This document shows, piece after piece, positions 10,138-13,877 of a stretch of 64,000 bases of DNA. The stretch is taken from the NCBI GenBank assembly GCA_000143165.1, contig CP002084.1, positions 558,001 through 622,000 on the forward strand. Reading direction: 5' to 3'. The stretch is from Dehalogenimonas lykanthroporepellens BL-DC-9 (GTDB lineage: Bacteria > Chloroflexota > Dehalococcoidia > Dehalococcoidales > Dehalococcoidaceae). The first letter of the stretch is position 1, and every line of letters begins with the position of its first letter. Made by a program: the position numbers and the translations under genes. The notes under the pieces were generated by a model. It was not told where the DNA came from. It saw only the letters and a list, made by a program, of their open reading frames with translations, and did not search any database.

Positions 10138-10302
10138 AGGCTATCCTGTCCGTCATTCAGGCCCGATTATAACACCTGAAGCCTACTTTTGTAACCGCGA
10201 AGCGGACGATATGGACTATCGGTACCGGTTTTCACTCACCGGCGGTTTGTGCTACAATCGCCACGATTCAGAGTTTTTGCGTCTTCGGGACGGAGGGATA
10301 TT

Positions 10303-11472
10303 ATGAAATTAATGGTTGTGGGTTGTGGTCAGTGCGGCGGCCGGATAGCCGATCAGTTCGCCAAACTGAACCGCGTTGCCCATGTCAGACGCGGCGTGGA
10401 TATCGCCACCAATGTACTGGCGGTCAACTCCGATGTGGCCGACCTTTCCGGGCTGGAGCATATACGCTCCGACTACCAGCATCGCGTACTCATTGGCGCT
10501 CAGAAGACTTCGGGGCACGGCGTGGGTAAAATCAATGAAATGGGCGCCGAAATCGCCCGGGACGATGGCGACAAGCTCATCCAGGCCATCAAGAACTCTC
10601 CCAATTTCGGCGAGACGGATGCTTTCCTGCTGATTGCCGGGGCGGCCGGCGGTACCGGTTCCGGTTCCATCTCGGTGCTGTCCCAGCAGATAAAGGAACG
10701 CTTCCCGGAGAAACCGGTGTACAACATGCTGGTTCTGCCTTTTGCCTATGAAGAGGCCACTGAGGAACGCTCCGTATTCAATGTCGGCATCTGCCTCAAG
10801 TCGTGCTATCTGGTGGCCGACGCCATTTTCCTGGTGGATAACCAGCGTTTCATCAAAGCCAGCCACTCACTCCGGGCTAACCTGGATAAGATTAACTATC
10901 ACATGGTCAAGCCGTTCTATAATCTGCTGTGCGCCGGTGAGGAAAAGAACCCCAAGTATATCGGCTCCAAGGTCATGGACGGCGGCGATATCATCCAGAC
11001 CCTGTCCGGCTGGACAGTCATCGGCTTCGGCCAGACCAAGACGCCTAACCTGAAATTCCGGCGCAACGCCGATTTCCGGGATCAGAGCAACGAGGTGCGC
11101 AAGGGCGCCGAGGCCATCAACGCCGCCCTGGCCGACCTGTCGCTTCGGTGCAATCCCACTGACGCCAAGCGTGGTCTCTACCTGCTGACTGCTTCTCAGT
11201 CTGACATGAGCATGGATCTCATCAACGAGATGTCGGGCGCCCTTAAAGGCATGGCCACCGAGGCGACCATCCGCACCGGGGACTATCCGCGCGGCGATAA
11301 GACACTGGACGTGACCGTGGTGCTGTCCGAGCTGGTCAACTCCAGCCGGGTCATGGATTACTTTTCCAAGACCATTTCTTACATCAATAATTCCCGGCGC
11401 CGCCAGTCGGGGCTGGAATACGGCTTCCGGGGTGTGGAGGAATCCTTCAAGGACATTCCGTCATTGCTCTAG
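10303..11472 (+). CDS. CetZ-like tubulin/FtsZ-superfamily GTPase
   Basis: A 389-aa cytoskeletal GTPase. The N-terminus MKLMVVGCGQCGGRIAD is the nucleotide-binding start typical of CetZ/FtsZ proteins, and the tubulin signature GAAGGTGSG is at residues 113-121. KVMDGGDIIQTLSG (about 223-236) corresponds to the T7 catalytic loop region and looks more like archaeal CetZ than bacterial FtsZ. ATG 10303 is chosen for its GGAGGG ribosome site; a start at 10249 would add non-homologous residues. It is expected to polymerise with GTP; a role in cell shape rather than division is only inference. A perfect 15-bp hairpin terminator follows, shared with the convergent coiled-coil gene. Confidence 0.85.
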   Translation: MKLMVVGCGQCGGRIADQFAKLNRVAHVRRGVDIATNVLAVNSDVADLSGLEHIRSDYQHRVLIGAQKTSGHGVGKINEMGAEIARDDGDKLIQAIKNSPNFGETDAFLLIAGAAGGTGSGSISVLSQQIKERFPEKPVYNMLVLPFAYEEATEERSVFNVGICLKSCYLVADAIFLVDNQRFIKASHSLRANLDKINYHMVKPFYNLLCAGEEKNPKYIGSKVMDGGDIIQTLSGWTVIGFGQTKTPNLKFRRNADFRDQSNEVRKGAEAINAALADLSLRCNPTDAKRGLYLLTASQSDMSMDLINEMSGALKGMATEATIRTGDYPRGDKTLDVTVVLSELVNSSRVMDYFSKTISYINNSRRRQSGLEYGFRGVEESFKDIPSLL

Positions 11473-11494
11473 GTTTTTAGAATACCGAAATGGA

Positions 11495-11527
11495 AAAAGG
11501 GCTGACCTGTTGCAGGTCAGCCCTTTT
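11495..11527. terminator. Bidirectional intrinsic terminator
   Basis: Perfect 15-bp inverted repeat: AAAAGGGCTGACCTG at 11495-11509, loop TTG, and its complement at 11513-11527. It has A/T runs on both sides, so it can stop both the tubulin-like gene (+) and the coiled-coil gene (-). Confidence 0.93.
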
Positions 11528-11530
11528 ATG

Positions 11531-13807
11531 TCACTCTTCGCGAGGTTCCGGCGGGCGGTTCTGCGCTTCCTTGAACATCTGCTCCAGCATTTCCATGCGA
11601 TTCTTGAGTGATTCCCGGGGCGGGGCCGGTGTTGTTTCTCCGGACTCGGGTTCAGCGGCCGGCGGTTTTTCCGGCACTGGTTCCGGTTTGGGCGGAGGCG
11701 GTTCCCGACGCGGTCGCCGGGCAATCTCGGCAGGCGGCTTGCCGATTTCCTCGGCGGTTTCGGCCAGGATGCGTTCGTTGACGCTACCGATATCGCTGGC
11801 GCTTTGAACAATATCCTGGAAAGTGGCTATCCAGGAGCGAGCCGCTTCCTGAGCGGCGCGACGGGCGGCTTTGACCGCGTCACGGGCGGCTTTGGTGCCG
11901 GCTTGACTGGCATCGGCGGCTTCCTGCATCAGTTGCTCCATGCGAGCGATGGTTTCTTTCGACGAAGCGGCTGAGCGTTCCGCCATCTCCCGGGTGGTTC
12001 GGCTCTGCTCTTCCAGTTGCGCGATGCGTTCTGACATGACGTCTATCATCTCGGTAACGGTGCGTTTTGACTCTTCGGTTATTGCCGCTACCCGGTCGAT
12101 GGCTTCCTGAGATGAGCGGGCGGCGGCCGACGCCGCGTCGGCCGCCGCCTTGCCGGCTTCATCGGCTCTGGAGGCCGCCATTCGGGCGTCGGCCCCAGCG
12201 TGGTCTGCCGCTTCGCGGGCAGAGCGGGCGGCTTCTTCCGCCCGGTTGATAGCTTCGGCGGCCTGGGTAACGCAGTTCGCCGAAGCCTGTTCAGCACTTT
12301 GAACCGCGTTTTCGGCGGCCTTGACCGCCATGTGAGCGGCCTTGTCGGCGGCTTGTTTGGCTTCCTCGCCGGCGGTCTCGGCGCGTTGCATTGCCTGATT
12401 GGACAGGGAAACGGCTCGCTCGCCGGCCGCCTGAGCCGATAAGGATATTGCCTCGGCGGTCTTGATAGCTTTTTCATAATTCCGGGAATAGCCGGAAATG
12501 CTGTTTTCGGTCTGTTTGGCCAGGGTTTCGACCCGCTTGATGACCTCACGGGATTTCAACTCCACGGATTCGGCCGACCGCCGGGCGTCGGTTGCCGCTG
12601 ATTCGGCGCCGGCAACACCGGTGGAGGCCTGGTCGGCGGCGGTAGCCGCCTCAGCGGCCAGCCGGGCTGATTCTTCGGCGGCTTCCCTGACTTGTCGGGT
12701 TAAATTTTCGGCCTTTTCGATGGCCGCACTGGAAGCGGTTATGCTGTCACGGCTTGCGGCGTCGGCGGCGGTTATGGCCTTGTTGGAGGCCTCGATGGCT
12801 TCACGAGAGGCTTTTTCGGCTGATTCCCGGGCGGCCTGAGCGGCGGCCTCCGCCGTACCCGCGGCCTGCTCTGAAACGGCAACAGCCCTTTTACCGGCGG
12901 CGGTGGCTTCAGCGCCGGCGTCGGCGGCGATTTTGGCGGCTTGCTCGAATTGCCGGGAATAGGCGGCCGCTGAATCCCGGATTTCACCGGCGATGGCTTC
13001 AGCCCGGCGCAGGGCTTCGGCGGCCTGTTTTTCAGCGGTCGCAACGGCGGCCGCGGCTTCGGCTTTGGCTTTGTCCAGCGCTGAGCGTGTCTCAGCCATG
13101 GTGCTTTCGGTGAATCGATCCGTTTGCTTACGCATTTCAGCGGTAGCTCGCTCTGTTTCAGCGATGGCTTCGGCGGTTGAGCGGCGGGCATTTTCGATGG
13201 CTTCGTCCACGCCGGCTCGCGCCCGGTTGACAGCTTCGGCCGTTTCCTGAGCGGTGCGGGTAGCCGCCGACCGCGCTTCTTCGGCCGCGGTCATGGCTGT
13301 CTCGGCGGTGGCCAGGGCACTGGCGGCGTCCTCGCCGATGCTCCTGGCGGCGGCCTTGGCCTCGTTTAGCGCCTTCTGCGCTTCCTTGCCGGCGGCTTCG
13401 GCCTGTCCCTTCAATTCCTTGACGGTGGCTTCGGCATTTCTGGCGGCTTCGCGGTAGGAGCGGTTCAGTTCATCGGCATCGGCCGAAGCAACGGCTACGG
13501 CTCCTTCGGCGCGACGGATTGCCTCTTCGAATACCGAAGTATTCTTTTCAGCGCTTTCACGGGCTTTGCGAGCCGCTTCTTCCGCTTGGGCGATGGCTTT
13601 TTCATAATTTTTGGCGTAGTTTTTGGCGGTGTCGTCGGCAACCTTAACCGCTTTTTCCGCCTGTTTGACCGCTTCCCGGGACTGCTTTTCGGCGTTGTCC
13701 ACGATGGTGCGGGCGGTGCGGGCCAGGTCATTAGCTTCACGGACGGCCTCCCGGGAGGCTGCGGCCGACCGGTCGCCGGCGGATTGGAGTTCATCTTTTT
13801 CGGTCAT
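11531..13807 (-). CDS. Giant alanine-rich coiled-coil protein
   Basis: A 758-aa protein made almost entirely of Ala, Glu, Lys, Arg and Ser, forming one continuous predicted coiled coil from about residue 10 to 685, then a Pro/Glu-rich tail (about 690-730) and a short helix. No membrane segment or enzyme motif is seen. A motif of the form Y-[AS]-[KR]-[NQ]-[YF]-E-[KQ]-A recurs near residues 64, 283 and 440, marking internal repeats. The ATG at 13807 follows GGGGG. It is convergent with the CetZ-like gene, which suggests, but does not prove, a cytoskeletal or scaffold role. Confidence 0.85.
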   Translation of the reverse strand: MTEKDELQSAGDRSAAASREAVREANDLARTARTIVDNAEKQSREAVKQAEKAVKVADDTAKNYAKNYEKAIAQAEEAARKARESAEKNTSVFEEAIRRAEGAVAVASADADELNRSYREAARNAEATVKELKGQAEAAGKEAQKALNEAKAAARSIGEDAASALATAETAMTAAEEARSAATRTAQETAEAVNRARAGVDEAIENARRSTAEAIAETERATAEMRKQTDRFTESTMAETRSALDKAKAEAAAAVATAEKQAAEALRRAEAIAGEIRDSAAAYSRQFEQAAKIAADAGAEATAAGKRAVAVSEQAAGTAEAAAQAARESAEKASREAIEASNKAITAADAASRDSITASSAAIEKAENLTRQVREAAEESARLAAEAATAADQASTGVAGAESAATDARRSAESVELKSREVIKRVETLAKQTENSISGYSRNYEKAIKTAEAISLSAQAAGERAVSLSNQAMQRAETAGEEAKQAADKAAHMAVKAAENAVQSAEQASANCVTQAAEAINRAEEAARSAREAADHAGADARMAASRADEAGKAAADAASAAARSSQEAIDRVAAITEESKRTVTEMIDVMSERIAQLEEQSRTTREMAERSAASSKETIARMEQLMQEAADASQAGTKAARDAVKAARRAAQEAARSWIATFQDIVQSASDIGSVNERILAETAEEIGKPPAEIARRPRREPPPPKPEPVPEKPPAAEPESGETTPAPPRESLKNRMEMLEQMFKEAQNRPPEPREE

Positions 13808-13848: not shown

Positions 13849-13877
13849 ATTGTAACCGAGGATTTCAGGCTTGGCAA
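13849..13877 (-). promoter_or_regulatory. Promoter of the coiled-coil gene
   Basis: On the minus strand, TTGCCA (13877-13872), a 17-nt spacer, and TACAAT (13854-13849). The leader would be about 35 nt and includes a G-rich ribosome site. Confidence 0.75.

Follow-up and report, generated by a model that had tools for sequence, protein, structure and literature searches.

Could a tubulin-family GTPase and the long coiled-coil protein encoded beside it form an internal skeleton in a bacterium whose class is thought to lack peptidoglycan? The question is raised by a 64,000-nucleotide stretch of the Dehalogenimonas lykanthroporepellens BL-DC-9 genome (contig CP002084.1, positions 558,001 to 622,000; hereafter the window), in which the gene for the GTPase, here termed CetZ-A, converges on the gene for an alanine/glutamate-rich coiled-coil protein. 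An original prediction, made from the sequence of this stretch alone, had called the GTPase archaeal-CetZ-like and speculated that the pair determines cell shape. We found that CetZ-A is genetically tied to the long coiled-coil protein; in relatives that branch more deeply, the tie extends to a small coiled-coil protein as well. The conserved pair suggests an internal skeleton, as yet unstudied, in wall-less (peptidoglycan-free) cells.

Identity and distribution of CetZ-A

CetZ-A matched the Pfam Tubulin/FtsZ GTPase domain (PF00091, 97.7 bits, cut-off 33) and CetZ_C (PF21011, 63.6 bits, cut-off 21.6), a model that, across 14 control genomes, matched Haloferax volcanii alone. No FtsZ_C match was found in the Pfam search at E values up to 0.01, the score against the ftsZ equivalog TIGR00065 (50.5 bits) fell far under its cut-off of 295.2, and the FtsZ-like Tubulin_2 model PF13809 scored 17.6 bits, under its cut-off of 27. 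The best solved-structure matches by sequence were 4b46 (E 2.5e-41) and 4b45 (E 4.6e-28), titled CetZ1 and CetZ2 of H. volcanii in the fold search. The AlphaFold model (predicted local distance difference test score, pLDDT, 78.7; predicted template-modelling score, pTM, 0.82) pointed the same way: the four top Foldseek matches were all CetZ chains, with Z scores of 42.0 for CetZ2, 41.8 for CetZ1 and 37.0 for Methanosaeta CetZ against about 33 for Odinarchaeal tubulin and FtsZ. The N-terminal GTP-binding stretch reads GCGQCGGRIAD, and KVMDGGDIIQTL aligns where H. volcanii CetZ1 has its T7 region, placing D226 and D229 opposite D215 and E218, the latter a catalytic residue of CetZ1. Judged by its sequence and its modelled fold, the window GTPase is a CetZ, as the original prediction had supposed, and a position inside true FtsZ is rejected on the missing FtsZ_C, the low TIGR00065 score and the CetZ-best structural matches. 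In a 70-row tree, CetZ proteins stood apart from the two FtsZ proteins of the same genome on an inner branch of 4.73; joins near this long branch are weak, and the tree includes no archaeal FtsZ or tubulin.

CetZ-A shares with archaeal CetZ (H. volcanii CetZ1 and CetZ2, Methanosaeta CetZ) the full-length Tubulin GTPase plus CetZ_C architecture, the fold, the acidic T7 residues and the presence of several paralogues per genome. It differs in its bacterial host, its identity of only about 30% to CetZ1, its FtsZ-like tail and its dedicated coiled-coil neighbours. With bacterial FtsZ it has in common the GTPase domain and a C-terminal peptide of the (D/E)(I/V)P(S/A)(F/L)L type, the latter as a similarity only, but the domain and score differences above separate the two, and two real FtsZ genes lie elsewhere in the genome, which carries five tubulin-family genes in all, the other three being CetZ paralogues.

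CetZ is termed archaea-specific in the available text of PMC9856176 and PMC11621097. Against this archaea-only description, CetZ emerged as standard equipment, in multiple copies, of a bacterial order that includes organohalide respirers: 53 of the order's 61 genomes gave CetZ_C matches, as did 44 of 196 in the class and 21 of 301 in the phylum, with all 21 falling within the class and none among the 262 of those 301 that lie outside it. A genome-wide scan with a mixed alignment gave at least 77 loci among its best matches with titles naming Dehalococcoidia, Dehalococcoidales, Dehalococcoidaceae, Dehalococcoides or Chloroflexi/Chloroflexota; the exceptions were two Deltaproteobacteria and one Syntrophaceae, and no archaeal CetZ for rooting the tree was among the best matches listed. 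One sentence in the available text of PMC9871819 (2023) mentions CetZ-like proteins of Chloroflexota-Dehalococcoidia with matches to the CetZ_C hidden Markov model. These are evidently the proteins analysed here; the paralogue clades, coiled-coil partner, C-terminal peptide and peptidoglycan link were not found in that text. Dehalococcoidia offer a second setting for the study of CetZ, outside archaea.

The class also contains archaeal-type CetZ genes (L090, L092, L093, L094, L095, L096, L088), which score 107–137 bits against CetZ_C and have no C-terminal peptide. Their neighbours, over NCBIfam cut-offs, include guanylate kinase, aroA and panB in L093 and hrcA in L090; given such bacterial-looking neighbour genes, archaeal contamination is not favoured as their source in L093 and L090. 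Separate transfers from archaea are suggested for the archaeal-type genes.

The CetZ-A/coiled-coil pair across Dehalococcoidia

Loci were gathered around CetZ genes, 80 further ones from the order and 60 from the class, and a main tree of 162 CetZ proteins was built by quick search with support from the Shimodaira–Hasegawa-like approximate likelihood ratio test (SH-aLRT) only. Window CetZ-A fell in a clade, clade A, of 40 genes from 17 families (SH-aLRT 99); the earlier 70-row tree, from a careful search with bootstraps, contained the same core of 12 members, supported at 100/99. The T7 acids D226 and D229 were conserved in all 40. A long Ala/Glu-rich coiled-coil open reading frame (ORF), recognised by a composition rule that was fixed after the first examples had been inspected, lay within 1.5 kb of 38 of the 40 genes, convergent in 37 and same-strand in one. 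The two genes without it sit at contig ends: L129 lies 881 bp from the end, with a small coiled coil there, and L144 lies 1 bp from it, its genome carrying coiled-coil genes near the end of a different contig. Among other Dehalococcoidia-type CetZ, 103 of 112 had no long coiled coil within 1.5 kb, and the remaining nine are the second CetZ on the far side of the same cluster; for archaeal-type CetZ the count was 0 of 8. Within 5 kb of the 40 clade-A genes, CetZ and the long coiled coil alone recurred in each of the 17 families, against 11 for the small coiled coil and at most 7 for any further neighbour gene family. A chance neighbourhood is rejected on the 38/40 pairing and the 17/17 recurrence, and the expectation that the pair stays together in related genomes was borne out.

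Trees and tallies omitted CetZ ORFs shorter than 330 aa or scoring below 50. Never fetched into the tree were G123, G091, G134, G169:C226, G467:C46 and the second copy G504:C1:2260407, and placement was by BLAST only, outside the tree, for G505:C29, G490:C7, G499:C43, G461 and G506.

Across the 61 genomes of the order, the window coiled coil found a match in 35 of 36 with a clade-A CetZ and in 2 of 25 without. The match in G462, a genome without clade A, is a different kind of protein in which the C-terminal motif described below is absent. Clade-A-negative G506 has a genuine coiled coil next to a fragment of the clade-B paralogue CetZ-B, on a 3.2-kb contig that stops before the CetZ-A side. 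Clade-A CetZ and the coiled coil were jointly absent from four same-genus genomes (G074, G163, G180, G172), three of which have one divergent CetZ and one none; these module-free genomes provide a natural comparison. Same-genus, module-free L063, L064, L065 and G172 show one divergent CetZ without the C-terminal peptide, or no CetZ.

The 38 long coiled-coil proteins range from 283 aa (truncated at a contig end) to 910 aa. Their mean autocorrelation peaks at lags 25 (0.92) and 50 (0.74), and their hydrophobic period of 3.57–3.58 equals 25/7, which is close to that expected of a near-straight rod. The window protein is less regular (0.59 at lag 25, with lags 11 and 7 slightly above), and its hydrophobic peak is at 3.58. 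Three internal repeats had been predicted for it: a Y..[NQ][YF]E.A mark does recur three times, at residues 64, 283 and 440, but the deeper regularity is the family-wide 25-residue period. A motif, R[LM][ED]xLx[KRQ]M[YF], occurs 19–39 residues from the C-terminus in 33 of the 38 proteins (the search pattern additionally permitted K or Q at the third place), and several of the other five carry near variants. Aligned relatives are only 22–28% identical to the window coiled coil, and the alignment's sole invariant columns are R737, L741 and M744. No hydrophobic segment was found in the 758-aa window protein. The small coiled-coil family, with members of about 90–188 aa, was found at 22 loci; all but one of these are clade A (21/40), and there it adjoins CetZ-A.

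Crescentin and other bacterial coiled-coil-rich cytoskeletal proteins likewise combine a long coiled coil with no transmembrane segment and a plausible structural role; the window family differs in its dominant period of 25, which is no plain heptad rod, and in its tie to a tubulin-family gene. The CetZ neighbourhoods described in the available text of PMC9856176 concern genes for cofactors and for nucleotides, and type IV pili. At Asgard/Odinarchaeal tubulin loci a tubulin-superfamily gene does adjoin coiled-coil genes, but the available text of PMC9871819 describes the OdinTubulin neighbours as specific to that genome, whereas the Dehalococcoidia pairing is kept across 17 families.

A candidate cytoskeletal module and its alternatives

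The CetZ-bearing genomes lack peptidoglycan genes, in keeping with the original premise. mraY was found in none of the 44 CetZ-bearing class genomes versus 92 of the 152 others, and a penicillin-binding transpeptidase in one of the 44 (G194, one match) versus 92 of 152; the Fisher value of 3e-15 disregards kinship. A Fisher test on families drew on an assumed number of families in total and carries no weight here. Dehalococcoides cells are irregular discs and Dehalogenimonas cells irregular or flattened cocci (available text of PMC10284905). The nearest functional precedent for a role in shape is CetZ1 of H. volcanii, without which that archaeon forms disks only (available text of PMC10869688). 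A cell-shape role for the module is plausible.

A membrane link may be provided by the CetZ tail. In clade A the C-terminus follows the pattern ...[DES]IPx[LF]..., most often DIPSLL, in every one of the 39 complete proteins. A looser pattern was present in 94 of 112 other Dehalococcoidia-type CetZ; the tail was found in 0 of 8 archaeal-type CetZ of the same class and in 1 of 1329 control ORFs. The first pattern used, looser still and not anchored at the end, had given an internal match in 3 of the 8 archaeal-type proteins. Some FtsZ proteins examined carry ELDVPSFLRK or ELEIPAFLRQ. FtsA was over cut-off in 20 of 21 genomes and SepF was found in 0 of 16, leaving FtsA as the sole FtsZ membrane tether found; we infer that FtsA may bind the CetZ tail as well. 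An additional ftsA fragment adjoins ftsA in G074 and G163.

Our preferred reading, to which we assign a probability of roughly 0.55, is a bacterial CetZ cytoskeletal module: a GTP-driven filament with a dedicated coiled-coil linker, its tail perhaps held by FtsA, that supports shape or constriction. CetZ-A would polymerise with GTP, whose hydrolysis would rely on the acidic residues of T7. The coiled coil, pictured as a near-straight 25/7 rod that carries a flexible linker and, C-terminally, a short helix motif, would bind or cross-link CetZ filaments much as a microtubule-associated or spectrin-like linker does. FtsA would anchor the CetZ peptide to the membrane, and the resulting network would sustain shape or constriction in cells free of peptidoglycan. 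The module is a concrete, testable candidate for how such bacteria keep their shape. In the literature searched, which took in few subscription papers or bioRxiv preprints, we found no study that addresses what CetZ does in bacteria or the CetZ/coiled-coil pair, and no conserved structural partner for any CetZ; nor did we find there the 25/7 repeat, the R[LM][ED]xLx[KRQ]M[YF] motif, the DIPSLL tail or the mraY-free distribution of CetZ. A bolder proposal, which we advance tentatively, is that peptidoglycan-free Dehalococcoidia possess their own tubulin-type cytoskeleton, in which FtsA-anchored CetZ linked by the 25-residue-repeat rod (and by the small coiled coil in deeper lineages) would carry out mechanical work that elsewhere falls to peptidoglycan and its synthesis machinery.

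Several observations weigh against the cytoskeletal reading. Neither Pfam nor NCBIfam gave a match for the window coiled coil, and its structure model, all-helical but of low confidence (mean pLDDT 49), is uninterpretable beyond helicity; the best-scored part is helix 731–749, the region of the C-terminal motif. Subunits of FtsZ-type filaments are spaced at roughly 43 Å and 25 residues span about 37 Å, so one coiled-coil repeat per CetZ subunit is not supported. Because 60 of the 104 mraY-free class genomes are also without CetZ_C, CetZ is dispensable for peptidoglycan-free life; because G074, G163, G180 and G172 have no coiled coil and at most one divergent CetZ, so is the module. The available text of PMC10284905 reports that the class lost peptidoglycan once, and the CetZ association accordingly rests on few independent events. 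Those seen are the Dehalococcoidia-type CetZ and, acquired separately, the archaeal-type CetZ; all lie on the side without peptidoglycan.

The same data admit other readings. CetZ-A could be an accessory division protein that joins the FtsZ ring via FtsA, with the coiled coil bundling or spacing ring filaments, so that the pair would serve cytokinesis and not resting shape. The resemblance of its C-terminal peptide to the FtsZ peptides of the same genome fits this, as do the two FtsZ–FtsA pairs (each ftsZ of the window genome is preceded by an ftsA-type ORF), the absence of SepF and the presence of four to five tubulin-family genes in several Dehalococcoidia genomes. The module, however, adjoins neither ftsZ in the window genome, the nearer being about 33 kb off, and same-genus genomes survive without it; we regard this reading as somewhat unlikely but worth keeping in view. 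It is distinctly unlikely that the coiled coil is instead a membrane-coating or stress-type amphipathic helix protein whose link to CetZ reflects envelope remodelling with no filament network. An Ala-rich, strongly repetitive protein with no hydrophobic segment would suit such a role, and one relative gave a sub-threshold apolipophorin-III match, but the 25/7 stripe is nearer to coiled-coil geometry than to 11/3, and a protein partner is suggested by the tight tie to a single CetZ clade and by the conservation of the short motif near the C-terminus.

Tubulin-family polymers such as TubZ can segregate plasmids, and by that precedent the pair might serve to segregate DNA or plasmids, CetZ acting as the motor and the coiled coils serving as adaptors. 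We consider this very improbable: the locus lies on the chromosome, any neighbour beyond the module recurs in 7 of 17 families at most, none of the coiled coils tested reaches a Pfam cut-off, and the GTPase carries a CetZ_C domain. Equally remote is a neighbourhood conserved without functional interaction, its genes merely never having been separated. Convergent genes are not co-transcribed, which would agree with this, but the link has been kept over 17 families in which other neighbours, the small coiled coil aside, recur in no more than 7; it persists despite the low identity of the aligned coiled coils to that of the window, and both genes are jointly absent from the four same-genus genomes.

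Locus layout and associated observations

The features of the locus are collected in the table. The mechanical ORF of cetZ-A opens at GTG 10249, and the ATG at 10303 is preceded by a GGAGG-like stretch. The convergent genes are separated by 58 bp, where an inverted repeat (arms 11495–11509 and 11513–11527) has a folding energy of -28.4 kcal/mol (z -5.9 versus shuffles). It reads as a terminator for both strands, as had been predicted, and is absent from the output of a simple terminator scan. Because each gene has its own sigma70-like match upstream, the two are apparently separate transcripts with a common terminator.

Table. Features of the cetZ-A/coiled-coil locus (window coordinates).
Feature	Position	Strand	Remarks
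cetZ-A	10303..11472	+	389 aa CetZ-type tubulin-family GTPase; Tubulin domain 3-185, CetZ_C 189-354, disordered tail 372-389
Coiled-coil gene, partner of cetZ-A	11531..13807	-	758 aa, Ala/Glu-rich, 25/7 periodicity, Pro-rich linker near C-terminus
T7-type loop KVMDGGDIIQTL of CetZ-A	10969..11004	+	By alignment to CetZ1
CetZ-A C-terminal peptide DIPSLL	11452..11469	+	Resembles same-genome FtsZ peptides (D/E)(V/I)P(S/A)FLR
Terminator-like hairpin, bidirectional, common to both genes	11495..11527	.	Perfect 15-bp arms, 3-base loop
Coiled-coil C-terminal motif RMEMLEQMF	11573..11599	-	Family form R[LM][ED]xLx[KRQ]M[YF]
Sigma70-like promoter match 5' of cetZ-A	10229..10258	+	TTTTCA-18-TACAAT, TG ahead of second hexamer; consensus match only
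Sigma70-like promoter match 5' of coiled-coil gene	13849..13877	-	TTGCCA-17-TACAAT; consensus match only

Elsewhere the module takes a four-gene form (L145, L148, L141, L161, L143, L169, L166, L068, L069), in which the long coiled coil is flanked on its far side by a second, divergently oriented CetZ and, in most, the small coiled coil sits between the long one and CetZ-A. G504 (L152) has two apparently identical copies of the module CetZ with coiled-coil matches, 1.37 Mb apart (C1:888457 and 2260407), which represent either a duplication or an assembly fault. At L174 (G498:C32) a small coiled-coil gene stands at a non-clade-A CetZ locus with no long coiled coil nearby. The clade-B CetZ paralogue (L007 2373-7990; G000:C1, about 839–845 kb) lies downstream of enolase and GAPDH on the same strand, with a histidine-kinase gene (by Pfam) next. 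The window genome is a single contig of 1,686,510 bp. G+C content in the window is about 0.55–0.63 over the first 20 kb and about 0.42–0.52 across the last 40 kb (22000–64000), a low-G+C stretch as in an acquired or high-plasticity region.

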